Shown: piece after piece, positions 43,423 to 64,000 of the stretch
Position numbering within the stretch: position 1 is the stretch's first letter
How the letters are laid out: the number at the start of each line of letters is the position of its first letter
From: Marinobacter sp. LQ44
GTDB lineage: Bacteria; Pseudomonadota; Gammaproteobacteria; Pseudomonadales; Oleiphilaceae
Direction: 5' to 3'
DNA: 64,000 bases
Assembly (NCBI RefSeq): GCF_001447155.2
Contig: NZ_CP014754.1
Location: forward strand, 2,542,001 to 2,606,000
The notes under the pieces: generated by a model
Told to the model about the DNA's origin: nothing
Seen by the model: the letters and a program-made list of their open reading frames with translations, nothing else
Database searches by the model: none
Position numbers and translations under genes: made by a program

Positions 43423-45072
43423 ATGGGCGCAGTTGTAGAATCGTCACCGTCTGCTTCGCTGAAGAAAGCGTTGGACCAGAACAATAGCAAGGAATTGCTG
43501 ACTCGCTGGGCAGAGCAATCCTTTTTTACACTTTTTGCGACGGACCCTTCGGGTATCGAGCGTGTGGCCTTTGTCCAGTATGGGCCGGATCAGGCTGCTA
43601 TCGTTGCATTGGACCAGCAGGAGGCTGAGGATCTGGTCTCGGCGCTTACTGAGCATAACCCATCAGTCAAACCCTTCGTCAAAACCTTGCCCCTTTGGGA
43701 AATTGCTCGTTTGGCCCATTCCGATGGGGGCATCGTGACGTGGCACCAACAAGGCACCGTGCTTGAGGGGCGTCCTTTGGCGGCGCTTGGGTATATGGCG
43801 CTGGTCACAAGCGAAGAGGGCGGCGATCGTTATTACAAGATAACAACTTTGCCCCTTGAGGGTGAGGGCGCTGAGGACCTGGCTCCGGGCTGCCTGCAGC
43901 ACTGGAACGACGAAGGTGAAGACGCCGACACCGGTAATCTGCGACTGATTTACGATGACACCGTTGATTGGCAGGGTAATCCCATGCTGCCGGATTTGCC
44001 GGAGTCAGCAGTGCCACGCTCAGCTCTTTCAGACGGTGAGCGCCGGATATTTGATCGTTGGGCAACGCCGGTGCTTGGCCGGCACGTGCCGTTGACGCGG
44101 GATCAGAACGCCAGTCATCAGCCCCGGTTATCCGCCGTTGAGACAATGCCTCCGGCACTCCTGGCCACGGCACAGCAGTTCTACGAGTTGCTGGAGGAGC
44201 GGTTGTTCAACCAGAGTTCGGGCCTGAAACTCGAAGTGGCACCCACGACGATTACTCCAATCGCCGTTGACGATGATGGTAACGAATATGAGGGAGAACC
44301 TGTCGGAGCCATTCGATTTGCGGTTCAATACATGCAGCAAAGCCGCTTTGGTGCCGGTATAACGTCGCTCAAACTGTATGAAGAAACACTGAGGGTTGAA
44401 GAGGTTGAACGAATGCCGTATCGGCTGCCGCAGGCGCCGGGGCTTCATCCACTTCCAGACGCCCTGCGTGGACTGCTTCTGCGGCACATTAGCTGGAGGC
44501 TGTGCGTGCTTTCTCGCAGGTTGGAAGACGGTTTGTTTTTCTTGGGTGGGCATTTACGGGACCTGCTTTCAGCTCAGCCAGAAAACTCGGATTCACGCTT
44601 TTTCAGTGATCCCGATGACGAACGGTTTCCCTTTCTGGCCGGTTTCCGGTGTGGTGAGAATCTGGTGCCGGTGTTGGTTCTCGGGATGCAGGATGGCAAC
44701 TATGTCTGTAGTCCTCAGCAAGACGTTGAGTTGGATGAAGAGCAGGTCGCCACGGAGCTGCCGCAACGGGAATTTGTCGTTGTCGATGGTGTTATGACCC
44801 TTTGGGACGCGCTGGGCTCTATTGTTGTGCCGCCGGCGCTGATTGAATATCCGGAACCCTGGTATAACGGTGTTCGGGTGTCGCTGGACCAAACCGTGTC
44901 ACAAACCATCAGGAGTCTTGCGCTTCTGAGTTTTGCCTCTCAGGACGATGACACCTCAGGGCCAGCTGTTTCCGAAAATCGTGACAACGCTTCCGAAGGC
45001 AAATTGCTCCTGAAGTGGATGGGAGCAGCCGCCATTGTCTTTGTTTTCGTCATGATTCTGGTTGGCTACTGA
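43423..45072 (+). CDS. Tail-anchored membrane protein, paralog A
   Basis: A 549-residue mostly soluble acidic protein ending in one membrane span (WMGAAAIVFVFVMILVGY), so it is probably a tail-anchored inner-membrane protein with a cytoplasmic body. It is a paralog of the gene at 59658-61274: shared blocks are PLWEIARLAH/PLRELARNAH, RRIFDRWATPV/AALFDKWAAPV, ERFPFLAGFRCG/TRFPVLASMPCG and GSIVVPPALIEYPEPWY/GPIVVPQSAIKFPDEWY. No enzymatic motif is evident. It is convergent with the rhomboid operon. Confidence 0.75.
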   Translation: MGAVVESSPSASLKKALDQNNSKELLTRWAEQSFFTLFATDPSGIERVAFVQYGPDQAAIVALDQQEAEDLVSALTEHNPSVKPFVKTLPLWEIARLAHSDGGIVTWHQQGTVLEGRPLAALGYMALVTSEEGGDRYYKITTLPLEGEGAEDLAPGCLQHWNDEGEDADTGNLRLIYDDTVDWQGNPMLPDLPESAVPRSALSDGERRIFDRWATPVLGRHVPLTRDQNASHQPRLSAVETMPPALLATAQQFYELLEERLFNQSSGLKLEVAPTTITPIAVDDDGNEYEGEPVGAIRFAVQYMQQSRFGAGITSLKLYEETLRVEEVERMPYRLPQAPGLHPLPDALRGLLLRHISWRLCVLSRRLEDGLFFLGGHLRDLLSAQPENSDSRFFSDPDDERFPFLAGFRCGENLVPVLVLGMQDGNYVCSPQQDVELDEEQVATELPQREFVVVDGVMTLWDALGSIVVPPALIEYPEPWYNGVRVSLDQTVSQTIRSLALLSFASQDDDTSGPAVSENRDNASEGKLLLKWMGAAAIVFVFVMILVGY

Positions 45073-45125
45073 GTCTGCGTTGGCTTGGGCGATTGTGTGT
45101 AACCCGTCAGCCGGTGAACGCCTAC

Positions 45126-46214
45126 CTACCGGCTGATGGCTGCCTCTGGCTGGTTCAGCATGGCGATCAGCGGATTCTTTGCAAGAACATAGTCTCGCAT
45201 CAGGTATCCGATCAATAGACCAAATACGAACCCGCCAAGATGAGCAGCCCAGGCCACGCCGCCCTGGGCGGTAAACATCCCGAACAGATTGATCAGGCTC
45301 CAGATCAGGAAATACCAGTGGGGGGCCAGTTTCTTCTGGTAGATAACGATCATGAATGTCAGGCTGGCATGGCGGAACCACATGAGATAGAGGCCGAACA
45401 GGGCCGCGATGGAGCCGCTGGCGCCTACCAGTAGCAACGGCCCTTGAGAGGCATCAAACAGCATAAGTTCTGCCAATGCGGCGACCACCCCAGACAGCAG
45501 ATACAGGCCTAGAAAAGTCCAGTGGCCCAATGCGTCTTCCAGGTTGTCGCCGATAATCCACAGAAAATACATGTTACCGACAAGGTGCATCAGCCCGCCG
45601 TGAACAAATTGGTAGGTAAACAGTTGCATGGCCACATGGGCTGCACTCGGGGAATCTGAGTTAAGGCCAAGGTTCAGAAAGATCCATTCGTTGGAGCCGG
45701 CATCATAGACGCCACTGAAAAAGACAAGAGAGCATAGTGCGATCAGCAGCCATGTCACCCAGGGTGTGCGATGGGGCTGAATGTTGTATTCAACCGGCAT
45801 GGCCGTGAAGAACTGGAACACCCAGGATTTCCAAGTGACCTTTTTGTTCAGTTCCGCCAAGGCATCCTTAAGCAACGGGGAGTGAATGACTTGATCCACT
45901 TCATGCTGGTCAAGCCAGACACCGTCGCAGGTCGGGCAGCAGTCGATCTCTACGCTGTAATCGGCCAGTAACTGGTAGTGCGTCATGGGAACCCTGCATC
46001 TGGTGCACTGGCGATTGCTTTCGCCCAGTTTCGGCCCCAGGTGCTGTTCATGATCGTAGCGCTCAATATGATCGTGGTGGCCGGTTATGGCACAGTTCAG
46101 GCTGCCATCTTCAAACCACACCCCATGGCAATGCCTGCATTCAGCAATTCGTTGGTCGCCTCCCTGGAGTGGCCTCAGGGTGCGGGTGTCGCAGGCAGGA
46201 CAGTAGGATTTCAC
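45126..46214 (-). CDS. Rhomboid-family intramembrane protease with N-terminal zinc ribbons
   Basis: A 362-residue protein. Two CxxC-type zinc-ribbon units (CPACD and CRHCHGVWF at about residues 5-33; CTRC and CCPTCDGVWLDQHE at about 70-102), similar to zf-TFIIB domains, precede a six-span rhomboid core. The catalytic Ser is in VGASGSIAALFG (about 265) and His in AHLGGFVFG (about 324); the loop motif HGGLMHLVGNMYFLWIIG is also present. It cleaves membrane-spanning substrates. GTG 46214 overlaps the upstream gene by 4 bases, with GGAG upstream. Confidence 0.9.
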   Translation of the reverse strand: MKSYCPACDTRTLRPLQGGDQRIAECRHCHGVWFEDGSLNCAITGHHDHIERYDHEQHLGPKLGESNRQCTRCRVPMTHYQLLADYSVEIDCCPTCDGVWLDQHEVDQVIHSPLLKDALAELNKKVTWKSWVFQFFTAMPVEYNIQPHRTPWVTWLLIALCSLVFFSGVYDAGSNEWIFLNLGLNSDSPSAAHVAMQLFTYQFVHGGLMHLVGNMYFLWIIGDNLEDALGHWTFLGLYLLSGVVAALAELMLFDASQGPLLLVGASGSIAALFGLYLMWFRHASLTFMIVIYQKKLAPHWYFLIWSLINLFGMFTAQGGVAWAAHLGGFVFGLLIGYLMRDYVLAKNPLIAMLNQPEAAISR

Positions 46215-46936
46215 AGTTGCTCCATAACTTGCTGATCACGCTTTTCCAGGAACCAGTCAAGAGTTTGGGTGAGGGTCCAGGCCGCAAGCATGTAAATCTG
46301 GCACATGATCAGAAAGCCGAAGGTTCCGGAAACAAGATGTATAACGACTAGCGGGATATTCGCGACGACAAACAGGGTTGTAAGCGAGCCATCTTTGACC
46401 TTTTTTCGGATGTGGTCCTTGAGTTTAGCCGGTTGCCACCGCCGGATCGACGGCACTTCCGCCGGGGTTAATTCCGCCACAATCCGGGAATCCACGCCCA
46501 GATGCCAGCCACTATCCAGGGGGGTCTTCAGGTCAAGGTAGCTGCCTTCTGATCCTTGGCGAAGCTCGAGTGCTAGGGACGTGCTTTGCTCTGAGTTCAG
46601 ATGACTGATGGTGTGATTGGCCAGGTCAACAGAATACACGTGCCGTCCGGTGCCGAAGGTAACGCTTGCTGCCGTAAGAGCCAGCCAGAGGCCCGTCCAG
46701 CAATACAGAATCAATAACAGGTTGTTCTCGCCCCATGCTGTGTAGGTAAACGGCACCACAAAGCCGTAAGTCAGCACTGCGATTACCGGGAACCAAACCA
46801 CGAGCAAACTGGTCAAGGCCGACCGGTTGCCGGCAAGCAGAAGTTGCCCTGCATAACGGTTGTGGTTTCGGATTTGTTTCAGGCTATCTAGCGGGTTAGT
46901 AACCGCCTGAGACGGTTCCATGCTGGCGGTCGTCAT
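46211..46936 (-). CDS. Membrane protein of unknown function
   Basis: A 241-residue protein with two N-terminal hydrophobic segments (LTSLLVVWFPVIAVLTYGFVV; LLLILYCWTGLWLALTAAS) and two C-terminal ones (LFVVANIPLVVIHLVSG; IMCQIYMLAAWTLTQTL), with a soluble loop between them. AAAGGAAT precedes its ATG. It lies 3 bases from the upstream exported protein and overlaps the rhomboid gene, so it is a tight operon member and a possible rhomboid partner or substrate. Confidence 0.7.
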   Translation of the reverse strand: MTTASMEPSQAVTNPLDSLKQIRNHNRYAGQLLLAGNRSALTSLLVVWFPVIAVLTYGFVVPFTYTAWGENNLLLILYCWTGLWLALTAASVTFGTGRHVYSVDLANHTISHLNSEQSTSLALELRQGSEGSYLDLKTPLDSGWHLGVDSRIVAELTPAEVPSIRRWQPAKLKDHIRKKVKDGSLTTLFVVANIPLVVIHLVSGTFGFLIMCQIYMLAAWTLTQTLDWFLEKRDQQVMEQL

Positions 46937-46939
46937 GAC

Positions 46940-47848
46940 TTACAGATTCCTTTCTATTGGAAGAAATACCAATTCATAGGGCAAACCGGCACTGAGCCGT
47001 TGCATGTTCTGGGAGGCGGCACCGGCAGTCACATCGGAAAGTGCTAAAGCGTAATCTGTGCCGTTCGCTCGCAGGCTGTGCAGAAGAAACATCGGCTCAC
47101 CCGGAGGCGTGGTGCCGCGCCAGACTTTTTTCACCGGGCGGATCAAGCCTCTGGCGAAAGGTGGTAGCGCGTCCTTTGAGGACAATTCTTCCAGCAGGTC
47201 GCTGGTGCCTGCCAGCGTTCCATGTTGAAGCAGAAGTTGGCCATTGCGACGGAGCCCGACCACCGCATCGGGCCATGTCAGTTGGCGCCATTGTTCCAGG
47301 GATTCCAGTACCGGCAGTTCCCCGGTGTCAAAGCTATTCCAGAACTTGGCCAACTTGCGGAGATCGGTCTCTGACAAGACGGTAAGGCTACGTTCGTATG
47401 GTCCTGCCGGCTCACCTTTATGCCACACGGTTTTGTACTCCACTTGCCTTGAGCTGTACCGGCTTGTAGGAGAATTGTCGATACCGCGAATGGCGATGAT
47501 TTGCCCTGTGCTCCAATCGCCGTCGGAGTAGGCCCAGGACGTCAGTGTTTGAATGTCCGTAACACGAAAATTGACCAAGGCGCGGTTGACGCAGCGGACC
47601 AGAAAGCGGGGATGAGTTCCTGCCCGGGCGAGCACCGGGGCTTCGCAGGTTTCCGGGTCAATGCCCAGGTCTGTGTGCGCTAGCGGTTCGTCTTTGTTGG
47701 GCTTCAGCCAGCGCAGGGTCTCCGGTGATTGCGTTAGCCGCTGCTGAAGGTCTTCGGCGAGTGCCGATATTGTCGTTTCTGCTTGCGTTGTTACGGTGGT
47801 GAACAGGCAGGCTACCAGTGTCAAGGCGCTGAAAGTGCGTTTAACCAT
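46940..47848 (-). CDS. Exported protein of unknown function
   Basis: A 302-residue protein with a clear signal peptide (KRTFSALTLVACLFTTVTTQAET, cleavage at about residue 23). The mature part has two Cys (PETCEAPV; LVRCVNRAL), which could form a disulfide. AAGGAG lies upstream of ATG 47848, 7 bases after the DUF1190 gene. It probably acts in the periplasm. No family is recognised. Confidence 0.7.
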   Translation of the reverse strand: MVKRTFSALTLVACLFTTVTTQAETTISALAEDLQQRLTQSPETLRWLKPNKDEPLAHTDLGIDPETCEAPVLARAGTHPRFLVRCVNRALVNFRVTDIQTLTSWAYSDGDWSTGQIIAIRGIDNSPTSRYSSRQVEYKTVWHKGEPAGPYERSLTVLSETDLRKLAKFWNSFDTGELPVLESLEQWRQLTWPDAVVGLRRNGQLLLQHGTLAGTSDLLEELSSKDALPPFARGLIRPVKKVWRGTTPPGEPMFLLHSLRANGTDYALALSDVTAGAASQNMQRLSAGLPYELVFLPIERNL

Positions 47849-47855
47849 TTTTTGA

Positions 47856-48590
47856 TCAGCTCCTTGCCGCCTGCATGGTTTGCCTGGCAGTGGAGCCAAA
47901 GCCGCCACGCTGGCTGGTGCCGGTGAAGGTTCTGCTGGTGTTGGCTGCCAGTTGGCTTTTGGTGCGTGTTACGGGATCACGAAGATTCTGGTTGCCAAGG
48001 TACTGACCGTTGGCCATAACATAATGCCAGAGGAAGGGCGTGTGGCTGCGATAAGTCGAGCCCTGGCCTCCATCACCACTGCTGCTCAGAGTCTCGTCGG
48101 AAATGCTGTACACCGGCTGCAATTGCCTGTCATCCAGAGATTCGGGCGCGGGCTTGGTTCCCTCATAGGTGCCATCAAGGATGGCTTGATCGACCAGAAA
48201 GCCCGAAAAGGGGGGACGATAGTAGCCATCTGCTGTGCGCTCGCAGACGGAGAGATCGTCAATACCGCACCAGCCATTTTCACACGAACTGTTGACGGTT
48301 ACGTGAGCAAAGTCCGACTCACATTGGTGGCGAGAAGTGTACTTTGGGGCGATTGACGGATGCCGCTCTGCTGCCTCTGCGTTCAGTGTCTCGCAATAGT
48401 CCTGTGCGCCTGGCAAGGCGGTCTGGCATGCCTGCAGGTCCCGAAAAACCCGGACCTCAGAATGCAGAGGGTCCAGGCCAAGCACAGCGAAGGGCGTAGC
48501 ACCCATTAGCACCAGCGTCGCGGTCTGGGAGCGTTTCTGACGACGGGTACGGGTTGGCAGTATGGCGTTTGCCTCGTCCTGAGTGGCCAT
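47856..48590 (-). CDS. DUF1190 (YgiB/YjfM-like) protein
   Basis: A 244-residue protein: a basic N-terminus, one hydrophobic segment (TATLVLMGATPFAVLGL), then the Cys-containing DUF1190 region (ACQTALPGAQDYCETLN, SRHQCESDFAHV, SSCENGWC) and a Gly/Ser/Arg-rich tail ending QRGGFGSTARQTMQ. In E. coli YgiB/YjfM are encoded with the ATP-grasp proteins YgiC/YjfC, which matches the divergent neighbour at 48754. The start at 48590 (MATQDEAN) has AAGGATACTCC upstream; further upstream codons are non-typical. Confidence 0.85.
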   Translation of the reverse strand: MATQDEANAILPTRTRRQKRSQTATLVLMGATPFAVLGLDPLHSEVRVFRDLQACQTALPGAQDYCETLNAEAAERHPSIAPKYTSRHQCESDFAHVTVNSSCENGWCGIDDLSVCERTADGYYRPPFSGFLVDQAILDGTYEGTKPAPESLDDRQLQPVYSISDETLSSSGDGGQGSTYRSHTPFLWHYVMANGQYLGNQNLRDPVTRTKSQLAANTSRTFTGTSQRGGFGSTARQTMQAARS

Positions 48591-48626
48591 GGAGTATCCT
48601 TCTCCTGTATGCAGTTTGGGCGGGAA

Positions 48627-48653
48627 TTTATAGCAAGCGAAAGGAAAGGTCAA
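48627..48653 (-). promoter_or_regulatory. Predicted sigma-70 promoter of the DUF1190-rhomboid operon
   Basis: On the minus strand TTGACC (48653-48648) and TATAAA (48632-48627) are separated by 15 bases: 5/6 matches at both boxes but a short spacer. It is placed 37 bases before the DUF1190 start codon. Confidence 0.45.
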
Positions 48654-48753
48654 TCCGGTTGGACTTGGCGACTTTCCCGGGTGTGGAAATGCCGGTAGAC
48701 TCTCGCGCTTCAGGAAAGTATTAGACTGGCCCGCCTCAGGAGAAGGACACTCC

Positions 48754-49917
48754 ATGGAACGCATACAAATGGCTCCCCGCCCGGATTGGTGCTCTCAGGC
48801 GGAATCCTATGGATTCCATTTTCATACCCTGGAGGGCGAACCCTATTGGGATGAAACCGCCTGTTATCGGTTTACGCTTGCCGAGATTGAAGACGGTATT
48901 GAGGCACCCACCGAGCAACTTCACGCAATGTGCCTCGATCTGGTGGGTGAGGTGGTCTCAAGCGAGCGCTTGATGGATCAATTGGCGATACCCGGGAAGG
49001 CCTGGGATCTGATCGCCGAAAGCTGGAAGTTTTCTGAGCCGTCACTTTATGGGCGAATGGACTTCTCGTTCGATGGTGTCGGGCCTGCGAAGTTCTACGA
49101 ATACAACGCGGACACCCCTACCTCTCTCTATGAAACGGGTTTCTTCCAATGGTTGTGGCTTGAACAACAGATTGAGCGAGGGCAGCTGCCGGCAGGCGCC
49201 GATCAGTTCAATCGATTGCAGGAGGCTCTGATCGAGCGGTTGGCAATGATTGGTCGTGCAGGGCAGTCGTTTCACCTGGCCTGCTGCCGGGACCATCCCG
49301 AAGATGCCGGTACCATTGAGTATCTCGCCGACTGCGCGGATCAGGCCGGGCTTAATCCCAAGACCTTATTTATTGATGAGATTGGCCTTGGAGAGCGTCA
49401 GCGATTTTTTGGCCTTGATGATGAGCCTGTTGATCAATTGTTCAAGCTATACCCTTGGGAATGGATGTGGCAGGAATCTTTTTCCGATTATGTGGGTGCC
49501 AGTGGCACCCAGTTTGTCGAACCGCCATGGAAGCTGATCCTGTCGAACAAAGGTATCCTGCCTTTGTTGTGGGAGCGCCATGAGGGCCATCCAAATCTTT
49601 TGCCAGCCTGGTTTGAAAGCGATAAGCGACGTGATCCGAACCTCGAACGCTGGGTTCGCAAGCCGTTGTTCTCCAGAGAAGGTGCAAACATTGCGATTGA
49701 AACCGGCGCCGGAGTGGAGGCTCAGGTTGAGGGGCCATATGGCGATGGGCCAACCATCATTCAGGGTTGGTGTCCGCCTCCCCGTTTCTCCGGGCACTAT
49801 TGCCTAATCGGGAGCTGGATTGTGGGTAACGAGGCTGTCGGGATGGGTATCCGTGAAGACAATACGGCGATCACGCGCGACACGTCGCGGTTCGTCCCGC
49901 ATTTCATAGACGGCTGA
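48754..49917 (+). CDS. Glutathionylspermidine-synthase-like ATP-grasp amidoligase (YgiC/YjfC family)
   Basis: A 387-residue ATP-grasp ligase lacking the N-terminal amidase of GspS. Motifs are FYEYNADTPTSLYETGFFQW (about residues 112-131), EPPWKLILSNKGILPLLWE (about 251-269), HPNLLPAWF and VRKPLFSREGANI (about 297-309), which supply ATP/Mg2+ and acceptor contacts. Family members join an amine to a peptide carboxylate; the substrate of the YjfC branch is unsettled. AGGAGAAGG precedes the ATG. It is divergent from DUF1190, its usual partner. Confidence 0.9.
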   Translation: MERIQMAPRPDWCSQAESYGFHFHTLEGEPYWDETACYRFTLAEIEDGIEAPTEQLHAMCLDLVGEVVSSERLMDQLAIPGKAWDLIAESWKFSEPSLYGRMDFSFDGVGPAKFYEYNADTPTSLYETGFFQWLWLEQQIERGQLPAGADQFNRLQEALIERLAMIGRAGQSFHLACCRDHPEDAGTIEYLADCADQAGLNPKTLFIDEIGLGERQRFFGLDDEPVDQLFKLYPWEWMWQESFSDYVGASGTQFVEPPWKLILSNKGILPLLWERHEGHPNLLPAWFESDKRRDPNLERWVRKPLFSREGANIAIETGAGVEAQVEGPYGDGPTIIQGWCPPPRFSGHYCLIGSWIVGNEAVGMGIREDNTAITRDTSRFVPHFIDG

Positions 49918-49926: not shown

Positions 49927-50250
49927 CTATCCCGCCAGGTAGTTGCTCGCAAACGCCTGCAACTCCCCCGCCACCCGCTGCCGAATCGCGGCGCGGTCGT
50001 TGGGATCAAGCCCGTACTTCTTTGCCAGTACCTCAAAATCCTCATCCCGCAGGGTGATGGTCAGCCGGGGCCTGGTGCGATTCTTACGGTAGGGCAGTTG
50101 CAGGACTTTGCGGACCATATCAGCGGTAGTCATGTCCTGCAGGGCCGCAGACACCCGGAAGGCGCGCTGGATGTCGTTGGAGAGATCAAAGGCCAGTTGC
50201 ACCGCCTGAACCGCTTGTTCTTCTTTTGACCAGTCCGGTTTCTTTGCCAT
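49927..50250 (-). CDS. Small protein of unknown function in the PspA operon
   Basis: A 107-residue charged protein. The C-terminal half (RPRLTITLRDEDFEVLAKKYGLDPNDRAAIRQRV) looks like a short DNA- or protein-binding helical module. The ribosome binding site is weak. It lies 44 bases downstream of the PspA gene on the same strand and so is probably co-transcribed. It is convergent with the ATP-grasp gene, 9 bases apart. Confidence 0.6.
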   Translation of the reverse strand: MAKKPDWSKEEQAVQAVQLAFDLSNDIQRAFRVSAALQDMTTADMVRKVLQLPYRKNRTRPRLTITLRDEDFEVLAKKYGLDPNDRAAIRQRVAGELQAFASNYLAG

Positions 50251-50294: not shown

Positions 50295-50990
50295 TTACTG
50301 AGCCTGGTTGCCTTTCAGGCGGGCAAGGACATCGTTTACCGCGTCTTGCTCGCTGTCAATGCCGGCGGCTTTGAGCTTCTCATCGAGGTCTGCCCCGGTG
50401 AGCTCCTTCTCAAGCGTAGCGCTGGCGGTTTGCCGGTCTTCTTCCCGGGCCTGGCGGTCGCGGATGCGCTCCAATGTTTCCTTGGCGGTGCTCAGGGAAG
50501 ACTGGTTGCTGTTGATATTGGTATCGATCTGGGCGGTGGTGCGCAGCACCCGCTCGTTGGTTTTCACCACCTGCAGTTCCCGGCGGTAGTCGGCCAGCTG
50601 CTTTTCTGCCCGTTGTACGCGCTCTTTCAGGCCGCTGATGCGCTGTTGCAGCAATTCGCGGGTCTGGGTCAGTTCCCCGGCGCGGCGTTCGTGGCCCACG
50701 ATCCGTTCTGCCACTTCCCGGGCCAGCTCTTCCTGGCCGGCGGCCAGGGCTTTGCTGGCGTCCTGTTCGCGTTTGCTGGCGCTGTCCTGCTCAACGCGGA
50801 TCTGCCGGGCCAGCGATGCGGATTCGGCCATCAGGGCAGCCAGTTCCTGCTTGGCCTGTTTCAGTTCCTGTTCGGCGTCTCGCAGTTCCTGTTCCAGAAT
50901 GCGGTTGCCCTGGCCATCCACAACGGCTTCACCCAGTTCGTTAACGCCACCGCGCATGGCGGTCAGGATTTTCTTCAGTACGGTTCTCAT
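50295..50990 (-). CDS. PspA/IM30-family membrane-stress protein (YjfJ-like)
   Basis: A 231-residue protein that is almost entirely coiled coil (about residues 25-185), with the PspA/IM30 N-terminus MRTVLKKILTAMRGGVNELGEAVVDGQ. PspA-type proteins oligomerise on the inner membrane and limit leakage. The C-terminal DLDEKLKAAGIDSEQDAVNDVLARLKG resembles that of YjfJ rather than PspA proper. It is encoded 14 bases after the DUF2170 gene. No PspB, PspC or PspF is nearby. Confidence 0.88.
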   Translation of the reverse strand: MRTVLKKILTAMRGGVNELGEAVVDGQGNRILEQELRDAEQELKQAKQELAALMAESASLARQIRVEQDSASKREQDASKALAAGQEELAREVAERIVGHERRAGELTQTRELLQQRISGLKERVQRAEKQLADYRRELQVVKTNERVLRTTAQIDTNINSNQSSLSTAKETLERIRDRQAREEDRQTASATLEKELTGADLDEKLKAAGIDSEQDAVNDVLARLKGNQAQ

Positions 50991-51004: not shown

Positions 51005-51409
51005 TCAAGCCAGGTAGTCTTCAAAAGTCTGTAACAGGTCGATGGCATTCTCGGCGAGCGTGACCAGTTCCTGCATGATTTCGGTCGTACCGGAGGTGGG
51101 GCTCAAGGCGCCATATACCACGTAATGATCGCCGGTTCTTCCCAGTGCGCTGAGGGGCATGGGTACGCTTAGGCGGAGCATGTTTTCATGCAGCTCGTTC
51201 AGGCGTTCCGGGTTAAGCTCCTGTTCGTCAAAAAGGTACGCAAGGCACAGAATCTGGGTGTCGGTTACGGTAACGTACACCGGCGTTTCTTCAGCGCCGG
51301 AAACGACCACTTGCAATACCGGCTCGTCACCGGCTACGGGCATCACATCAAAGGTACGGCCTGCATGGGTAGCATCACCCAAGGCCAGGGTGAGGGATTG
51401 AGTGTCCAC
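51005..51409 (-). CDS. DUF2170 (YjfI-like) protein
   Basis: A 134-residue protein. PVYVTVTDTQILCLAYLFDEQELNPERLNELHENMLRLSVPMPLSALG and the following HYVVYGALS match DUF2170 (YjfI), which is regularly encoded next to YjfJ-type PspA proteins. The start is GTG 51409 with AAGGAGCTATTC upstream. It is the first gene of the minus-strand PspA operon. Confidence 0.85.
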   Translation of the reverse strand: MDTQSLTLALGDATHAGRTFDVMPVAGDEPVLQVVVSGAEETPVYVTVTDTQILCLAYLFDEQELNPERLNELHENMLRLSVPMPLSALGRTGDHYVVYGALSPTSGTTEIMQELVTLAENAIDLLQTFEDYLA

Positions 51410-55939: not shown

Positions 55940-58900
55940 GTGGCTGAGGCCCAGGGCACCCTGATGCGAGATCTGAAGCCGGACAGCTGGAAAGCGCCGG
56001 ATCAGTTCGTCAGTTACCTGGCCCGCCTGCGCGAACATCGGGGGCGGGTGCGCACCTTGAATGATCGGCGGTATGCCGATAAGGCCCGTATCGAAACGCT
56101 GGAAAGCGATCTGGCCGACGCTGAGGAGCGGCTGACGGAGCGAACCTTCCGTTTTCTGGCCTCACCGGAGGCGCTGGATGGTTACCGCAAGACCCTGACC
56201 GAATTACAAACTGACCTGGCCGAGGCCGACACCCGGGATGCCCTGCGCAAGATTGTAGACCGCTACCGGGAGCTGACTTCCGGGCTGGATATGATTCAGG
56301 GCATGCTGGCGTCCATGGCCGGTGACGATGCCGCGCTGGAAACCGCCATCACCGATAACATCTCGGGCATCTACGCCACCATCAATCAGCAGCGCTCGGA
56401 AGCGGAACTGCGCCTGAAAGAGCAGGGCAGTGCCGAGGCCCGGGCCCAGTTTGCCGCCCGGCTGCGGTTGTTTGAGCAGAGCCTGGCCAACGGCGTGAGT
56501 TCCCTGACCGATGTGCGGGAATGCGATGGCCTGATGACCCGTATGCTCGACCAGTTGCAGGAACTGGAAAGCCAGTTTGGCGAATACGATGAGTTTCTTG
56601 CCGCCATTCTGGAGCAGCGTGAGAACGCCCACGAAAGCATTGAGGCCCGGCGCCAGCAACTGCAGGATCAGCAGCAGCGCCGGGTAACGACACTCACCGA
56701 TGCCGCCGAACGCATACTCCGGAACGTCACCCGCCGGACCGAAAGGTTCGCCAGCCCGGAAGAACTGCACGCCTTCTTCGCCTCCGATGCCATGGTGGCG
56801 CGCCTGCGCAGCATGGCCAAAGAGCTGCGGGAGCTGGGCGCGGCCATGGAAGCGGATGACTGCCTGGGGCAGCTCAAGGCCGCCCAGGACACCGCGCTCA
56901 GAAGTGTTCGCGACAAAGCCGATATCTTTGAAGACGGCGGCGCGGTCATCCGTTTGGGCAAGCACCGGTTCAGTGTCAACCAGCAGGAGCTGGACCTGAC
57001 GCTGATCCCGCGAGACGACCACGTGCTGCTGCACCTGACCGGCACCCAGTATTATGAGCGCCTGGACGAGCCAGAGCTGGACCGCCTGCGCGGCTACTGG
57101 AACATGAGCCAGCCGTCGGAGTCAGACAGGGTCTACCGGGCCGAGTACCTTGCGGCACTGGTGATCGAGGAATTCCGGCAGGCATCTGATCTGCCCGTCA
57201 ACGTGGCCGACCTGGATGAGCTGACCGACTACATCCGCAAATTCGCCTCCCCCCGCTACCGTGAGGGCTATGAAAAAGGCATTCATGACCACGATGCGGC
57301 CTTGATTGTCAGTACCCTCTGGCCGGCTATCCAGAGCGCCGGATTGCTTCGATTCAGCCCCAAGGCCCGTGCCCTAGCCATGCTTTACTGGGCCGAGGTG
57401 GCCCGGCAGGATCTGGCGGCACAACAGTTGCGTTCTCGCTGTCTGTCTGCCGGTATTCTCAGCCGGATGATGCAGTCGAACGAATTGTTGTACTCCCTGG
57501 AGCAGGAACTTGCTCCGCAGATGTCGGAGTTTGTCGCCCATCATCAGCTGGCGATAGCGGAAAAAGGCAGTGCCGAGCGTACCCTGATTGAGTCGGCGGC
57601 CCAGTATTTAGTGCAGCAGCTGGCGGAGGAAACCGAGCAGTTTGATATCACCCGTTATGCGGGTGAGCTGGCGGCCGGTTTCACCGAATCTCTGAAACGG
57701 GATAACCAGTTTGCGCAGTACCAGCAAGCACTGGATGTGGTGAGCGGCCAGCCGGCGGCTCGCTGGACCATTGCCCAGCATTGGCTCAAGGCCTGGATGG
57801 GCAAGACCGACCAGCAACACCTGATGCATTACTTGCCGGAAGTGGTGGCCGTCCTCAATGTGGGCGATGCCATCAAGACTGGCGTTCGCAGCGTTGAGTT
57901 GGCCTTTCATGTGGAAGGCCTGCTGGGCCAGCACAGTCGCATCAACGAGCGCACCCTGAGCCTGCAGCTGGACGAATTCGATGAGCGCCTTCGCTACCAC
58001 CGCCAGGAAATCATTCCCGGCTGGCAGCAATTGCAGGAAGTTCGCCACAAAGTCCTGGAGCGCTGGCGCGACCAGCTACGCCTTGAGGAGTTCCGGCCCC
58101 GGCCGCTGTCGTCTTTTGTGCGCAATAAATTGATCAGCGAGAGCTACCTGCCGATCATCGGCGACAACCTGGCCAAGCAGATGGGTACCGCCGGTGAAGA
58201 CCGGCGCACAGACCAGTCCGGCCTGTTGATGATGATTTCGCCACCCGGCTACGGCAAGACCACCCTGATGGAATACGTGGCAAACCGCCTGGGCCTGATC
58301 TTCATGAAGATCAACTGCCCGAGCCTGGGCCACGATGTCACCTCCCTGGACCCGGAAAAAGCGCCGCACTCCACCGCCGAGGCAGAGCTGATCAAACTCA
58401 ACCTGGCCCTGGAAATGGGTAACAACGTGATGCTGTATCTGGATGATATCCAGCACACCCATCCGGAGTTCCTGCAGAAATTCATCTCCCTGTGTGACGG
58501 CACCCGGCGCATTGAGGGGGTCTGGCGCGGCCGCACTCGCACCTACGACATGCGCGGTAAACGCTTCTGTGTGGTCATGGCCGGTAACCCCTACACAGAG
58601 AGCGGTGAAGTGTTCAAAGTGCCCGACATGCTCGCTAACCGGGCCGATATCTACAACCTGGGTGACGTGCTCTCAGGCATGGAACACGCCTTTGCGCTGT
58701 CCTACATCGAGAACAGCCTGAGCTCCAACCCGGTACTGGCGCCCCTGGCCACCCGGGGCATGGCGGATTTCTACCGCTTTGCCGACCTGGCCGAGGGCAA
58801 AGCCGTGGCCGATTCCGAATTCGAGCACGATTACAGTGCTGCTGAGCGGGACGAAATCGTCTCCCTGCTGAAGAAAATGATCCGCGTGCGGGAAACCGTA

Positions 58901-59623
58901 CTGCGAGTCAACCAGGCTTACATTGCCTCCAGTGCCCAGGCCGAGGCCTATCGCACCGAGCCGACGTTCAAGCTGCAGGGCAGTTACCGGAACATGAACA
59001 AGCTGGCAGAAAAGCTTTCACCGATCATGAGCGAGGATGAACTGGACGCCTTGATTGATGACCACTACCAGGGTGAATCCCAGTTGCTGACCCAGGGCGC
59101 GGAAGAAAATCTGCTGAAACTCAAACAGATGCGCGGCACCCTGAGCGAGGCAGAAGCCGCCCGCTGGCAGTCCATCTGCGAAGAATACCGCCGCCGCCAA
59201 CAGGCTGGCGGTGACGAAGAAACCGGCGTCAAAGTGGTGCGCCAGCTGGGCCTGATTTCCGAGCACATGCAGCAACTGGGTCAGCAATTGGTGGCCGGGC
59301 TGGACAGCCGAAAGGGGACCGAACCGGATCTCGACAAGGCCCTGAGCCAGTTGTCCCGCTCGCTGGAAACGGGCCTCACCGAAGGCCTGCAATCGGTGCA
59401 GCTCAACCCGGCAGTCACCGTCAACCTGGACAGCCCGCCCCAGGTAGGCGATGCCCTGATGGCTTTTGCGAGGATCTTCGAGGAATCCATTGTGCCACTG
59501 GTGAAAACCATGGATGGCAAGCTGGACCTGGACCTGAAAACCCAGCAGGAAATGAGCCGGGTGTTGAGGGTTATACGGGATCTTCAGGACAGATTGCTGA
59601 CGCAGGATCGAGCTCAAAGCTAA
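55940..59623 (+). CDS. DUF3686/AAA+ 'DNA repair' ATPase, C-terminal part (gene interrupted by frameshift)
   Basis: A 1227-codon segment from the first possible start (GTG 55940); coding similarity reaches back in this frame to 55859 and no ribosome binding site is present. A coiled-coil region (about residues 1-330) and helical linker are followed by the AAA+ domain: Walker A PPGYGKTTLMEYVA (about 768), Walker B NVMLYLDDIQHTHPEFLQ (about 830) and sensor region VVMAGNPYTESGEVF. The 'DNA repair' label is a family name; the flotillin neighbour points to membrane-linked remodelling. Confidence 0.82.
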   Translation: MAEAQGTLMRDLKPDSWKAPDQFVSYLARLREHRGRVRTLNDRRYADKARIETLESDLADAEERLTERTFRFLASPEALDGYRKTLTELQTDLAEADTRDALRKIVDRYRELTSGLDMIQGMLASMAGDDAALETAITDNISGIYATINQQRSEAELRLKEQGSAEARAQFAARLRLFEQSLANGVSSLTDVRECDGLMTRMLDQLQELESQFGEYDEFLAAILEQRENAHESIEARRQQLQDQQQRRVTTLTDAAERILRNVTRRTERFASPEELHAFFASDAMVARLRSMAKELRELGAAMEADDCLGQLKAAQDTALRSVRDKADIFEDGGAVIRLGKHRFSVNQQELDLTLIPRDDHVLLHLTGTQYYERLDEPELDRLRGYWNMSQPSESDRVYRAEYLAALVIEEFRQASDLPVNVADLDELTDYIRKFASPRYREGYEKGIHDHDAALIVSTLWPAIQSAGLLRFSPKARALAMLYWAEVARQDLAAQQLRSRCLSAGILSRMMQSNELLYSLEQELAPQMSEFVAHHQLAIAEKGSAERTLIESAAQYLVQQLAEETEQFDITRYAGELAAGFTESLKRDNQFAQYQQALDVVSGQPAARWTIAQHWLKAWMGKTDQQHLMHYLPEVVAVLNVGDAIKTGVRSVELAFHVEGLLGQHSRINERTLSLQLDEFDERLRYHRQEIIPGWQQLQEVRHKVLERWRDQLRLEEFRPRPLSSFVRNKLISESYLPIIGDNLAKQMGTAGEDRRTDQSGLLMMISPPGYGKTTLMEYVANRLGLIFMKINCPSLGHDVTSLDPEKAPHSTAEAELIKLNLALEMGNNVMLYLDDIQHTHPEFLQKFISLCDGTRRIEGVWRGRTRTYDMRGKRFCVVMAGNPYTESGEVFKVPDMLANRADIYNLGDVLSGMEHAFALSYIENSLSSNPVLAPLATRGMADFYRFADLAEGKAVADSEFEHDYSAAERDEIVSLLKKMIRVRETVLRVNQAYIASSAQAEAYRTEPTFKLQGSYRNMNKLAEKLSPIMSEDELDALIDDHYQGESQLLTQGAEENLLKLKQMRGTLSEAEAARWQSICEEYRRRQQAGGDEETGVKVVRQLGLISEHMQQLGQQLVAGLDSRKGTEPDLDKALSQLSRSLETGLTEGLQSVQLNPAVTVNLDSPPQVGDALMAFARIFEESIVPLVKTMDGKLDLDLKTQQEMSRVLRVIRDLQDRLLTQDRAQS

Positions 59624-59657: not shown

Positions 59658-61274
59658 ATGATCAAGGAAGATTTGGCAGTGCCCACAGCGGCACAGTTTT
59701 TAGAAACACTCAACAGCGGTGATCACCTGAAGCTCATTCGGGAATGGCGCGATGTTGTGTTTCACACCGTATTCGTCAAGAAACCCTCTGGGCTTGAATT
59801 GCCAATGCTCTATCCGGTTGACGAGCATCAGAGCTTTCTGGCGAGCCCGGATGCCAATGAGGTTCAAGAGGCATTGGAAGGCTTTGCGCTTCCGGACGAT
59901 GCCGACGTTTTCGTTAAAGCGGAACCGTTACGAGAGCTGGCCAGAAACGCCCATATGTTGGGAGCCTGGCTGAACTGGCTGGGTGCCGAGATCATCATGA
60001 ACAGTTCACTCATGGAACTGTTGGGGATGAAAGCTCTGGTGACAGTGGAAGGTGGGCAAGAGAAATTGTATCAGGCAAAAGTTTATGCCTCCCCTGCACT
60101 GAATAAGACGGGCCCCTCGGCCAACGCAAGCGCCCAAATCTGGAACATCAACCAGGTCGTTGGCGGGTCCGACATTCAGCGCTCCCAAGAAGTCATGATT
60201 TATGATGACAGCAAATCTTTTGCGATTGCAGAGAATGAAGGCTCGATTCTCTCTTCACGCAAATTAAGCCAGTTGACGGCGGATGAAGCAGCGCTCTTCG
60301 ACAAATGGGCGGCGCCGGTATATGACTTTGAGGCGTTAACCCAGGGTGAAGAGAAGGGGAGCGGCTCTCTTACTCAGGACACTTACGTTCCCCACCCCTC
60401 ATTGCTTGACGATGCGTTACTGAATTCATTCCGTGAACTTGAGCGGGCGATTAACAATGAGATCATGCCCGATGCAAGCCGCCTTCATCTGGAGGTTAGC
60501 AAAGACCAGGTTTTCGCCGAAATGGAAGAGTCGGGAGATGACAGCCTGGATCGCGTTGAGGGCCGCAAGTTCTGTATTCTTTTTGAGGATCACCCCGAAT
60601 GGTGTCTGTTGCTCGGTGGGGATGGCCTGGCACTGACCGATTTCTCCGATGAGGTTTGGCTACCGAGCTCAACTGGTCGCCATGAGGTGCCGGAGCCCCT
60701 GCGCCTGAAAGTGGTTCGGGGCATTGCCTGGACGTTATTCTGGAAGGGGCGGGAGCCTGGTACGCGGGTGTCGCTCATTCCCGGACAGTTTGCGGGTCTG
60801 AAACCCTTTCGCCCGGACAATCTGAACAGGATCTTTCATCCGCCTTTGGATGACACCCGGTTCCCGGTGCTGGCTTCCATGCCTTGTGGCGCACAACCAA
60901 TGCCTGTGCTGGTGCACGGTGAGATACCCGAAGGTTACGTGGTTGAAGCACTGGAGGATCTGAAAGTTCAAGCTTCAGATCTTCCCCGGGGAACACCGCG
61001 TCGAGACAGCATACTGGTGAACGACGCGGTTCATTTTGGCTCGATGTGCGGCCCCATAGTGGTGCCACAGAGTGCCATCAAATTCCCGGATGAGTGGTAC
61101 ACAAGCGCTCGAACGTCCAAAACCCAGCTAATTTCCGATTTCAAGTTTTTCCTGCAGAGCCAGCCCCGGAGGACGTCTGCGCCGGGTAAAGATCTTGATA
61201 GCCCGGGGGTGGTGATAGGCATCTGCGTTGGTTTCATGGCCTTTTTGTTACTACTGGTTGTCATGCTTGGGTGA
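59658..61274 (+). CDS. Tail-anchored membrane protein, paralog B
   Basis: A 538-residue paralog of the gene at 43423-45072, with the same order of conserved blocks (PLRELARNAH; LFDKWAAPVYDF; DDTRFPVLASMPCGAQPMPVLV; GPIVVPQSAIKFPDEWY) and a single C-terminal span (VVIGICVGFMAFLLLLVVMLG). AAGGATG precedes ATG 59658. It is 34 bases after the ATPase gene and thus probably in its operon, which ties this unknown family to the flotillin-ATPase system. Confidence 0.78.
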   Translation: MIKEDLAVPTAAQFLETLNSGDHLKLIREWRDVVFHTVFVKKPSGLELPMLYPVDEHQSFLASPDANEVQEALEGFALPDDADVFVKAEPLRELARNAHMLGAWLNWLGAEIIMNSSLMELLGMKALVTVEGGQEKLYQAKVYASPALNKTGPSANASAQIWNINQVVGGSDIQRSQEVMIYDDSKSFAIAENEGSILSSRKLSQLTADEAALFDKWAAPVYDFEALTQGEEKGSGSLTQDTYVPHPSLLDDALLNSFRELERAINNEIMPDASRLHLEVSKDQVFAEMEESGDDSLDRVEGRKFCILFEDHPEWCLLLGGDGLALTDFSDEVWLPSSTGRHEVPEPLRLKVVRGIAWTLFWKGREPGTRVSLIPGQFAGLKPFRPDNLNRIFHPPLDDTRFPVLASMPCGAQPMPVLVHGEIPEGYVVEALEDLKVQASDLPRGTPRRDSILVNDAVHFGSMCGPIVVPQSAIKFPDEWYTSARTSKTQLISDFKFFLQSQPRRTSAPGKDLDSPGVVIGICVGFMAFLLLLVVMLG

Positions 61275-61350
61275 TAGTAGGCTGATCCGAACCTGACTGG
61301 TCGGTATTTAACGCAGATAAGCGCAGGTTCGATGCAGAAGGATTTGTAGC

Positions 61351-62739
61351 ATGGCAGGGAAACTCAGTTATCAACAATTTCACTTTATTCGACGGGATGT
61401 TATTGCGGCAGGCTTGCCAAACTACACTCTCACCGACCGTGAGTCTCAGGGCGGGAGGTATGTAACCAGCCACCGGGAAAAAGAGGTGTTTCTGTATCTG
61501 GAGGATGAAGAAATATTCTGCCTCTCGCCTGATGAGAAACCTTCGCGCATGCCTCTGACATCAGTTCGTAATTTGTATCTGGGCCCAGGTGGTTCTGACT
61601 GGGAGGTGTCGTGCGCCATTCATAGAGGCTTGGGTAGGCCGATCGTTTTTGGGGATCACAGCTACCATCGAGGCGTTGATAGCATTGCTGAAGTTCTCCG
61701 GTCTGACTTCAGGACTTTCATTGAGCAAATTCAGCGTGCTCTTATAGAGCGGAAGCGGGACGCAAAGGTAACGTACGAAGCAAGAGGGCCAGCTTCTCGC
61801 AGCGTAGGTTGCCTTACCGCCTTTACGCTTTTGGGCTTGGGCCCGATGCTGGCCATAGTATGGTCGACGTACTGGTTGGACAACGCGAACGATGCAGGTG
61901 AGGCGAACTCCTGGATATTTGCTGGCGTGAATCTTCTGCTTATTGGCATCGGCATTTTTTTCTCTGTCTTTCTGAACCGTATTCTCAGCCCACGGATTCG
62001 CTTTGAGAAGGCCAAAACACCTGACGCCATGTTTGACGCGGCAGATGCTGTCATAACGTCCGAATGTCACAGATATCAATCAGCCCTGCGGTTTATCAAC
62101 TACCAAATTCCTAAGGCCGAAAAAGGTGTTTACCAGTCTGCTGATGCCAAGGGATATCAGAGTCGTTTTCAAGTGACGGATAAAGAGGTTGTTTTCACGT
62201 CGTGGAAGGAGCAGCACGAGGCCAGGGAAGAGCGATACCGCCTTGGTGCTATTGTTAGCGTGAATATGAACCAGCCGAAAATGAATTTTCACACCATCTC
62301 GATCACCTTCTACGATGGAAATACTTGGCTGATCACTACTGAGGATTTCAACCCGAGTGTTGGCAATCAGCGGGCGCATGCTGACTTGCAAAGAGCCCGG
62401 TTTCGTCATTGGGTTGATCACCTTCATAGGCAACTGATAGATCGACAATGTAGCGGTCGTATCGCTTTCACAAGCGGAAACTCTGCCTCTTACAAGTTGG
62501 CCCGGGTCGGGTTGTGGCTATTTAACGTTTTTGTATTTGGCACGGTCGCATTGCTGATAATCCTCGGGTTTGCGGTTGCGTGGTCTCCCAGACTTTTATT
62601 CTCGGCAGTTTTGCTCGGGCTCGTCGGCGTGACCACCAACGTTGTTTCATCTTTACTGAGCACGAAACGTCCGACTCAGCCTTATTCACCCGAGTCACTG
62701 CCGTGGCGGCATGTTCCACATCAGTCTGTTGAAAGGTAA
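61351..62739 (+). CDS. Polytopic membrane protein of unknown function
   Basis: A 462-residue protein. A soluble N-terminal domain (about residues 1-145) is followed by two spans (LTAFTLLGLGPMLAIVW; IFAGVNLLLIGIGIFFSVFL), a second soluble domain (SRFQVTDKEVVFTSWKEQHEAREERYRLGAIVSV) and two C-terminal spans (FNVFVFGTVALLIILGFAVAW and FSAVLLGLVGVTTNVV). AGAAGGATTTGT precedes the ATG. It is 76 bases downstream of paralog B on the same strand, so it is likely the last gene of the operon. Confidence 0.7.
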   Translation: MAGKLSYQQFHFIRRDVIAAGLPNYTLTDRESQGGRYVTSHREKEVFLYLEDEEIFCLSPDEKPSRMPLTSVRNLYLGPGGSDWEVSCAIHRGLGRPIVFGDHSYHRGVDSIAEVLRSDFRTFIEQIQRALIERKRDAKVTYEARGPASRSVGCLTAFTLLGLGPMLAIVWSTYWLDNANDAGEANSWIFAGVNLLLIGIGIFFSVFLNRILSPRIRFEKAKTPDAMFDAADAVITSECHRYQSALRFINYQIPKAEKGVYQSADAKGYQSRFQVTDKEVVFTSWKEQHEAREERYRLGAIVSVNMNQPKMNFHTISITFYDGNTWLITTEDFNPSVGNQRAHADLQRARFRHWVDHLHRQLIDRQCSGRIAFTSGNSASYKLARVGLWLFNVFVFGTVALLIILGFAVAWSPRLLFSAVLLGLVGVTTNVVSSLLSTKRPTQPYSPESLPWRHVPHQSVER

Positions 62740-62883
62740 ATTCTGGATAAAGAATCCTTTAACTACTTGGGCCCGAGCGCCGATACCTCGGAAAGTATTC
62801 CCTCAACACCTGATAAGCCGGAAAATTTAAATCGCACTGGGGTGGGGATTGCTGCGGGATCCGTCTCAAATTTCCCAGTCAGG

Positions 62884-64000
62884 CTAAAACGCAACACCAC
62901 GTTGTAGTAAGTGCCCTCTCGCCCATTCACTACCATGCTCCCAGGCCAGATCGAGTTCACTCTGCTGCTGTTCCGTCGTGCGCTCAAAGGTATCTTCCAG
63001 ATAGAGAACAATATCTTTGGGGGCGAATTTGTATGCAGCCGGGAGTACGCTGTAGGGAGGTGCGCCGAGGAGCGGGTTTTCGCTCGCTCCCGCGTTGACA
63101 AGCATTTTGACTATCTCAAGATCTCCACTAACAACCGCGTCACGCAACGCGTTGGATGACATCTGCTCGCTGAACCCATCGGGGTGGGCGCCGTGGTTCA
63201 GTAGCTGTTTAACCACAGATTCTGATTTATTGAACACAGCGAGTTTTAGCGGGAATCGATAGTCCTGGTTGTAGACATTTGGCCTTGCTCCCATTGAGAG
63301 CAAGGCTTCCACCATGTCTTCCCGGTCGGCTTTGACGGCGGTCATGAGAGGGGTATTCCCTCTGAAATCCCGGGCATTAAGGTCGTATATCGCGGGATGG
63401 AGGGCCCGAAGTGCCTCAACCTTGCCAGTGTGTGCCGCGATATGGAGAGTTTGCGGTGTCACTGTGGCACCGTTTTTCAGCAGGGATTCAATAGCCTTAG
63501 TGTCGTTCTGGAGGACAGCTGCATCCAGAAGCGTCAGCCTGCTAACGGGGTCCTCTTCGTTGAGCTTTTCTCGATCAACGGTCGGCAACACGCTGAACCC
63601 TTCCTGGAGGTAACTCCAGACAGGGGGTATGGGTTCGTCGGCATTCGTGAACAGTTGGCGGAGGCGGTCCAGAAGCGGAGAAGTCTGCCTGTTTTGTTGA
63701 TCTTGCTGGAGCAGGCGGAGAAGAGCGATACGGTGCCCCCACTCGATGTCTTCTCCAAGAACCACTGTGGCCTCCTGAACCGGTGATGAGCCGGAATAAT
63801 CTTTGTCGCCAAGATCAGCGCCGCTGCGAACCAACGCGTTGATCAAAGACAGATTTTTTCCCGAACGGATGAGCGGGTTCAACACATCTGCCAAGGGTTT
63901 ATCCAGAGCCGCGCGTCCTTGCTGTTTGAGCCATGAAACCAGCTGCTCTTCAGGCATAGCCTGCGAAAGATGCTCCAGGCTGGCGATAAGGAACTCGGCT
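62884..64000 (-). CDS. Ankyrin-repeat protein, 5' end beyond the window
   Basis: The frame is open to the window edge; residues upstream of an internal Met at 63957 (AEFLIASLEHLSQA) look coding, so the true start lies outside. At least four ankyrin-like repeats are visible (TLLDAAVLQNDTKAIESLLKNGA; GNTPLMTAVKADREDMVEALLSMGA; FPLKLAVFNKSESVVKQLLNHGA; NALRDAVVSGDLEIVKMLVNAGA). Ankyrin repeats mediate protein binding. The gene is convergent with the membrane protein; the 144-base gap between them holds nothing recognisable. Confidence 0.8.
   Translation of the reverse strand, partial: AEFLIASLEHLSQAMPEEQLVSWLKQQGRAALDKPLADVLNPLIRSGKNLSLINALVRSGADLGDKDYSGSSPVQEATVVLGEDIEWGHRIALLRLLQQDQQNRQTSPLLDRLRQLFTNADEPIPPVWSYLQEGFSVLPTVDREKLNEEDPVSRLTLLDAAVLQNDTKAIESLLKNGATVTPQTLHIAAHTGKVEALRALHPAIYDLNARDFRGNTPLMTAVKADREDMVEALLSMGARPNVYNQDYRFPLKLAVFNKSESVVKQLLNHGAHPDGFSEQMSSNALRDAVVSGDLEIVKMLVNAGASENPLLGAPPYSVLPAAYKFAPKDIVLYLEDTFERTTEQQQSELDLAWEHGSEWARGHLLQRGVAF

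Follow-up and report, generated by a model that had tools for sequence, protein, structure and literature searches.

The DUF2170-PspA, YqiJ-like, flotillin, and DUF3686-AAA+ genes, and the pair formed by a DUF1190 gene and an ATP-grasp ligase gene, are known PspA partner operons according to the main text of Ravi et al. 2024 (PMC11237479). Both sets lie together in Marinobacter sp. LQ44, in a 64,000-nucleotide stretch (contig NZ_CP014754.1, positions 2,542,001 to 2,606,000; G000:C1:2542001-2606000 in our numbering, genome of 4.44 Mb) that is referred to here as the window, with feature positions counted from its first nucleotide. A type VI secretion system (T6SS) cluster and a vgrG-effector unit occupy about 12 to 41 kb of the window, and the PspA cluster follows directly 3'. 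The original prediction, which placed a candidate envelope-maintenance system at 43423..64000, left out this upstream cluster, and the ankyrin gene at its far end runs past the window. What can most safely be said is that, in part of Marinobacter, a known machine for membrane maintenance has gained a stable T6SS effector-unit neighborhood and a junction protease. Our tentative reading of the sequences is that this known-type PspA-flotillin-AAA+ module, joined to the T6SS effector end, may provide general, not effector-specific, self-protection of the inner membrane.

Comparison with described PspA operons

The main text of PMC11237479 assigns DUF2170 a CesT/Tir fold and describes a CesT/Tir-PspA operon with flotillin, YqiJ/YuaF, and a coiled-coil/beta-propeller AAA+ protein. 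The window has the same DUF2170, PspA, flotillin, YqiJ-like, and DUF3686-AAA+ genes and shows the features of group 1 of that study, namely DUF2170 beside PspA_IM30, and flotillin with YqiJ-like and DUF3686/AAA+ genes (the last frame-broken here). It differs from that operon in its two divergent runs, the small protein S107, a zinc-ribbon rhomboid (ROM), tail-anchored proteins (TAa and TAb), and the T6SS effector unit. DUF2170, PspA, and S107 are co-oriented, with the YqiJ-like, flotillin, and DUF3686-AAA+ genes on the opposite strand. Families were assigned from Pfam or NCBIfam profile scores relative to curated cut-offs, and 16 cluster proteins were scanned for Pfam families. The core and the genes around it are as follows.

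43423..45072, plus strand, TAa, tail-anchored protein, 549 aa (C-terminal hydrophobic segment at 529-547; no Pfam or NCBIfam match)
45126..46214, minus strand, ROM, two zinc ribbons and a rhomboid protease (PF01694, 109 bits; PF13453, Zn_ribbon_TFIIB, 56.7 bits in two stretches)
46211..46936, minus strand, M241, polytopic protein of the TAa module (hydrophobicity, co-occurrence)
46940..47845, minus strand, X301, exported-looking protein with two invariant Cys (no family match; signal peptide by look only)
47856..48764, minus strand, DUF1190 protein, true start probably internal (PF06693, 76 bits)
48754..49917, plus strand, GSP_synth-type ATP-grasp ligase, 387 aa, without amidase part (PF03738, 482 bits over 371/371)
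49927..50250, minus strand, S107, small protein with a weak ribbon-helix-helix match (PF23807, 17.8 bits, below the cut-off of 27)
50295..50990, minus strand, PspA/IM30 family protein, PspA_IM30 (PF04012, 147.7 bits)
51005..51409, minus strand, DUF2170, YjfI (PF09938, 115.6 bits)
51615..52241, plus strand, YqiJ-like membrane protein (position, hydrophobic pattern, homologues beside flotillin homologues)
52285..54288, plus strand, flotillin/SPFH protein (annotated SPFH protein matched at 46% identity over 96%)
54367..55887, plus strand, DUF3686 part of the giant ATPase (PF12458, 569 bits)
55940..59623, plus strand, DUF7902 and AAA part of the giant ATPase (profile matches)
59658..61274, plus strand, TAb, tail-anchored protein, 538 aa (hydrophobic segment at 518-536)

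The E. coli yjf-type group (group 3, polyamine-ligase) combines CesT/Tir-PspA with DUF1190, DUF350, DUF2491, and ATP-grasp genes (main text of PMC11237479). The window likewise has DUF1190 and a GSP_synth ATP-grasp gene by DUF2170-PspA, but it has M241, X301, and TAa instead of DUF350 and DUF2491, neither of which had a match among the 16 window proteins scanned. The 387-aa ligase, at 106 of 882 bits, falls outside the bifunctional GspS (glutathionylspermidine synthase) family, and the window PspA falls outside the classical PspA (pspFABC) family (TIGR02977, 13.3 bits against a cut-off of 242.95). A further PspA_IM30 protein is encoded elsewhere in the genome (G000:C1:1247994-1248671, 108 bits).

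The families named in the original prediction (rhomboid with zinc ribbon, DUF1190, ATP-grasp, PspA_IM30, DUF2170, DUF3686, AAA, and ankyrin) were confirmed by profile. Its flotillin and YqiJ-like assignments stand without Pfam support. The window flotillin gave no Pfam match at E<=1, so that call leans on tblastn matches of 45-46% identity to proteins annotated as 'SPFH domain-containing' and 'flotillin family'; the YqiJ-like protein had no Pfam family above cut-off and is called from position, hydrophobic pattern, and neighbors. The 'giant AAA+ ATPase' is not the single gene that had been proposed, being divided here into pieces of 506 and 1227 aa in different frames (54367-55887 and 55940-59623). 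Of the other 26 Marinobacter genomes with DUF3686, 24 have it as one open frame of 1738 to 1788 aa; the exceptions are G107 (contig end) and G036 (broken). In G036, a one-contig genome, many cluster genes, including those of the T6SS, are split over several frames (L056, L057), suggesting poor assembly or a decaying locus. The proposal of an undescribed supercluster held in part. The core was already known, while 'rhomboid' does not occur in the main text of PMC11237479; relative to that main text, the Marinobacter T6SS neighborhood and a plasmid run with a rhomboid partner, on pQBR103, are new.

The vgrG-effector unit

The T6SS cluster was recognized from a VipB/TssC profile match at 13379-14278 and a TssA/ImpA match at 27264-28787; other window genes are presumed to be TssM and ClpV. 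Its end next to the PspA cluster reads as follows.

28812..32405, plus strand, TssM-like T6SS membrane-complex protein, 1197 aa (open reading frame)
32508..34631, plus strand, VgrG spike protein (Pfam GPD and gp5 domains; TIGR03361, 613.7 bits)
34607..35188, plus strand, DUF4123 effector adaptor (PF13503, 64.3 bits)
35219..39346, plus strand, VasX-like/BTH_I2691-like putative T6SS effector, 1375 aa (sub-cut-off PF20249 and NF041559; C-terminal hydrophobic pair)
39264..40496, plus strand, M410 membrane protein, immunity candidate by position directly 3' of the effector (no Pfam match)
40509..41108, plus strand, M199, small membrane protein (open reading frame, hydrophobicity; no Pfam match)
41603..42904, plus strand, DDE transposase between the T6SS unit and the cluster (PF13701, 526 bits)

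The transposase separates the effector unit from TAa in the window strain and is absent at that place in G082. The effector scored 16.6 bits with PF20249 (VasX_N; cut-off 27) and 45.9 bits with NF041559 (BTH_I2691; cut-off 150). Its hydrophobic segments at 1093-1133, near the C terminus, are among the features by which it appears to resemble the membrane-targeting VasX. Equivalent effectors are above the PF20249 cut-off in G040, G114, and G059 and below it in G046 and G047. VasW, the V. cholerae adaptor, is taken here to be a DUF4123 protein. As in the vgrG-2/vasW/vasX/tsiV2 genes of V. cholerae, in the account given by PMC3857813, the window has vgrG, an adaptor, a large putative effector that is VasX-like and hydrophobic near its C terminus, and then a membrane protein; unlike in those genes, M410 matches no named immunity family and the PspA-flotillin block comes after.

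M410 has 377 homologues, and the genera named among the best 120 of these are Marinobacter, Pseudomonas, and Ectopseudomonas. Members of this M410/G358 membrane-protein family are present in multiple copies at vgrG loci (L003:4504-5577, L113, L115, L117, L119, L123, L126, L127, and L129), and the window and L003 members gave no Pfam match. The family looks like a putative T6SS immunity family.

The effector genes between vgrG and the core vary. Strong matches to the window effector were found there in six other genomes and partial or weak matches in four, with VasX_N/BTH-type genes in G040, G057, G059, and G114 (G057 by a similar start only). In G059, a trio of von Willebrand-like, phosphatase-like, and 896-aa kinase-like genes (L036:10456-14570), named from a look at the sequence, also separates the vgrG-effector unit from the PspA core.

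Recurrence of the core and its vgrG neighborhood in Marinobacter

Loci were mapped with the window proteins in 120 Marinobacter genomes, over 7.5 to 40 kb around all 27 DUF3686 genes (27/120 genomes). DUF2170 was present in 24 of the 120 genomes, with PspA adjoining it in every case, and S107 is a constant neighbor of PspA in all 24 of these PspA-type cores. The three genomes with DUF3686 and no DUF2170 (G047, G077, and G079) have only the YqiJ-like, flotillin, and ATPase genes at the DUF3686 locus.

For 15 of the 24 cores, a vgrG gene lies on the contig of the core and no more than about 17 kb away: within 14.2 kb in 13, at 15.3 kb in the window, and at 16-17 kb in G093. G018 and G073 end at a contig edge within an M410 fragment, and the G107 contig is too short to tell. 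The other six cores (G020, G085, G068, G094, G100, and G119) have no adjacent vgrG. Each of these six genomes has one vgrG, of about 516-521 bits (G100 also has one 28.6-bit match); most full-length vgrG genes in the other genomes score about 579-624 bits.

Flanking genes place the cores in two chromosomal settings, class I (n=14) and class II (n=9), with nearly no common right flank; the only overlap is in G036, which has single genes in common with G040 and with G068. Adjacency to vgrG was seen in 10 of 14 class I loci, plus the two contig-edge cases, and in 5 of 9 class II loci, with vgrG and effector genes preceding the core in both settings. On a core tree built from PspA, DUF2170, YqiJ-like, and flotillin proteins, the setting has to change once and vgrG adjacency four times. 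Because the tree needs a single setting change and adjacency occurs in both settings, the simplest history is one in which the effector unit moved to the new setting along with the core, although the two may instead have become associated a second time. As a control, 20 other vgrG regions of nine genomes were inspected (all other vgrG genes above the profile cut-off in those genomes; a 39-bit G040 match was excluded), and none had ROM, tail-anchored, or core genes.

The zinc-ribbon rhomboid tracks the junction

ROM contains rhomboid GASG and WAAHLGG motifs and four CxxC motifs; GASG and HLGG are the catalytic Ser and His motifs. At a threshold of >=430 bits, ROM orthologs were found in 21 of the 120 genomes; 16 of these have the core, and the other 5 (G005, G013, G031, G034, and G051) lack it. 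In all five coreless genomes ROM lies beside vgrG and effector genes, and G034 retains an S107 remnant, as if its core had been lost. All 19 ROM orthologs on contigs that allow a verdict adjoin vgrG. ROM was present in 14 of 15 vgrG-adjacent cores versus 0 of 6 nonadjacent cores (Fisher 1.3e-4, with genomes counted as independent), or in 15 of 17 when the two contig-edge cases are included (Fisher 2.8e-4). The core tree offers four independent contrasts (G018 and G073 being counted as adjacent), in which ROM tracks vgrG adjacency in three to four and goes the opposite way in none. Only 5 of 61 T6SS-bearing genomes without DUF3686 have ROM; therefore, ROM goes with the place where the two systems meet, not with either system alone. 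Distant rhomboids are widespread, with some match in 120 of 120 genomes, up to 67 bits among the matches listed.

It is quite possible that the locus is instead a hotspot, in which a general envelope module landed once after vgrG and has since been passed on and relocated along with it, with no functional link to the T6SS. The single setting change fits this explanation, as do the persistence of the core in six Marinobacter genomes without adjacent vgrG, core or half-core loci without vgrG in other genera, the other genes (regulator-like and enzyme-like by look) that occupy the same slot in G013 and G031, and the strain-level additions of the transposase and the ankyrin gene. Against a hotspot stand the variation of ROM with vgrG adjacency in three to four of the four contrasts, the lack of rhomboid, tail-anchored, and core genes at the 20 control vgrG regions, and the presence of vgrG and effector genes ahead of the core in both settings.

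Loci outside Marinobacter

DUF3686 was found in 10 of 369 class-level genomes, including the window's own. Four of the nine loci outside the genus have DUF2170-PspA, and the others have less, down to the ATPase alone. Within up to 40 kb (two contigs being only 19-22 kb), these nine loci gave no match to the Marinobacter T6SS queries except a ClpV-type match in G471, which may be an ordinary ClpB; only one of the nine genomes has a vgrG above cut-off, about 280 kb away. Core loci thus exist outside the genus without a nearby T6SS, and therefore the core needs none and is not a T6SS component.

This evidence also bears on the possibility, which we consider very improbable, that DUF2170, with its CesT/Tir-type fold, acts with the AAA+ ATPase to ready or recycle a membrane-active effector ahead of firing, and not to repair membranes. 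CesT/Tir chaperones do function in type III secretion (main text of PMC11237479), and the effector unit adjoins the core. However, DUF2170-PspA is present in all six cores without adjacent vgrG and at four loci of other genera, and the effector unit has its own DUF4123 adaptor.

On the Pseudomonas plasmid pQBR103 (NC_009444, 84.4-97.6 kb) the whole set forms one co-oriented run in the order DUF2170-PspA-rhomboid-DUF2491-DUF350-DUF1190-ATP-grasp-YqiJ-like-flotillin-DUF3686-AAA+, with DUF350 called by annotation. All of these except DUF2491 and DUF350 are shared with the window, from which the plasmid further differs in its co-orientation, a rhomboid without zinc ribbons, and no T6SS gene annotated in 30 kb around the run. 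On a P. amygdali plasmid, this position holds a rhomboid-like sequence split in two, and no flotillin or ATPase lies in the 18.7 kb examined. No rhomboid is annotated at the corresponding place on a P. syringae plasmid, or at one V. cholerae locus and one Rhizobium plasmid locus. Lone zinc-ribbon proteins flank flotillin-ATPase genes at four loci in three other genera: G262 and G375, which belong to one genus, G258, and a Halomonas replicon. Two of these four proteins score just at the Pfam cut-off. Because lone zinc ribbons and a lone rhomboid (pQBR103) occur separately, the Marinobacter ROM seems to have fused two proteins, each of which is found with this machine at other loci.

Tail-anchored proteins and strain-level cargo

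TAa and TAb are 25-26% identical, and the C terminus of each is a hydrophobic segment, as predicted for two tail-anchored paralogs; a second, weaker segment lies at 451-469 of TAa. TAb has at least 14 homologues among the matches listed, from Marinobacter wherever a genus is named. The tail-anchored profile matched in 12 of 120 genomes, that is, in 12 of 27 with DUF3686 versus 0 of 93 without it, with genomes counted as independent. Neither a ROM ortholog nor a tail-anchored gene was found at the six cores without adjacent vgrG. In gene content and adjacency, ROM and the tail-anchored genes track the coexistence of both neighbors.

TAa is accompanied by M241, X301, DUF1190, and ATP-grasp genes in five of five genomes, and C67 and C85 of X301 are invariant in five of five sequences. 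In G114 the core stands between the TAa module and vgrG, which are about 25 kb apart; in G047 the module adjoins vgrG and a VasX-like gene, apart from the flotillin/ATPase locus. DUF1190 occurs in six genomes in seven copies, two of them outside the TAa module. To the right of the core, TAb is followed by two further genes.

61351..62739, plus strand, M462, polytopic protein, 462 aa (open reading frame)
62884..64000, minus strand, ankyrin-repeat protein, 1235 aa in full, extending beyond the window (ankyrin repeat profiles)

The ankyrin gene was present in 2 of 27 loci and M462 in 1 of 27, and both are strain-level cargo. An M410-family gene of the sister strain G018 (L018:12499-13725) occupies the same slot after TAb as M462; the two have their first few residues in common (MAGK-SYQ), the remainder appearing as if swapped.

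The original prediction treated all genes at 43-64 kb as jointly forming one envelope-maintenance system, irrespective of the T6SS, in which flotillin would mark damage, the ATPase would extract proteins, the rhomboid would cleave, and the ATP-grasp enzyme would modify a substrate. The run on pQBR103, with its rhomboid, DUF1190/ATP-grasp, and flotillin-AAA genes, and the confinement of tail-anchored genes to DUF3686 genomes favor such a system. It is nevertheless improbable, given the rarity of the ankyrin gene and M462, a TAa module found in five genomes only and, in G047, by vgrG-effector genes and apart from flotillin-AAA genes, and the missing ROM and tail-anchored genes at cores without vgrG. 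It also left out the T6SS, even though ROM and tail-anchored genes share their locus with a vgrG-effector unit, or may do so where the contig is cut. The expected recurrence with PspA, flotillin, and ATPase genes in other genomes was borne out for the core, the rhomboid (16 of 21 with the core), and the tail-anchored genes, which share genomes with flotillin and DUF3686 if not always the locus, and it failed for the ankyrin gene and the polytopic M462.

Possible self-protection beside a T6SS

Self-protection of the attacker's own inner membrane is the most economical function for the joined module, with a hotspot without function close behind. It is supported because vgrG adjoins 15 of 24 cores in two settings, because ROM separates adjacent from nonadjacent cores and none of the 20 other vgrG regions carries the module, and because a rhomboid (pQBR103) or lone zinc ribbons (four loci) accompany the machine elsewhere. 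Further support comes from passages in which VasX presented to the periplasm lowers membrane potential as much as CCCP (PMC3857813) and in which envelope stress responses are cited as an immunity-independent defense against T6SS (PMC7690452, citing Hersch 2020).

We infer every biochemical step of this model. A VasX-like effector, from kin or from the cell's own leakage, would insert into the inner membrane and cause depolarization. M410, as a dedicated membrane protein, would neutralize its cognate effector. PspA with DUF2170 would coat the depolarized membrane, flotillin and YqiJ would collect the damaged patch, and the AAA+ ATPase would extract membrane-inserted proteins. The zinc-ribbon rhomboid could cleave the inserted effector or orphaned membrane proteins, with the tail-anchored proteins possibly serving as adaptors at the inner face.

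Several observations weigh against self-protection. The window effector reaches neither family cut-off, and the ATPase gene is broken in the window strain. Six cores have no adjacent vgrG, 61 of 87 T6SS-bearing Marinobacter genomes lack DUF3686, and 8 of the 20 control vgrG regions have VasX/BTH_I2691-like effectors yet no module. No T6SS was found near the nine loci outside the genus, the Halomonas flotillin half, or pQBR103. A ROM ortholog is missing from G093 and from G073, one of the edge cases, and no T6SS gene lies close to a 47% rhomboid relative in G079. When relatedness is counted, only the four contrasts are left, with p 0.125 at best, and these take G018 and G073 as adjacent from a contig-edge M410 fragment.

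A stronger form of the proposal, which is unlikely, is that a T6SS attack locus carries an effector-independent second layer of immunity, in which PspA-flotillin-AAA+ repair, a zinc-ribbon rhomboid fused from separate partners, and tail-anchored adaptors would clear pore-forming effectors from the cell's own inner membrane. If self-protection is the correct reading, it would tie the purpose of PspA-flotillin-AAA+ operons to a concrete insult, membrane-depolarizing T6SS effectors, and the list of phage shock protein (PSP) partners would gain a protease. Attackers could then carry general damage repair beside specific immunity proteins.

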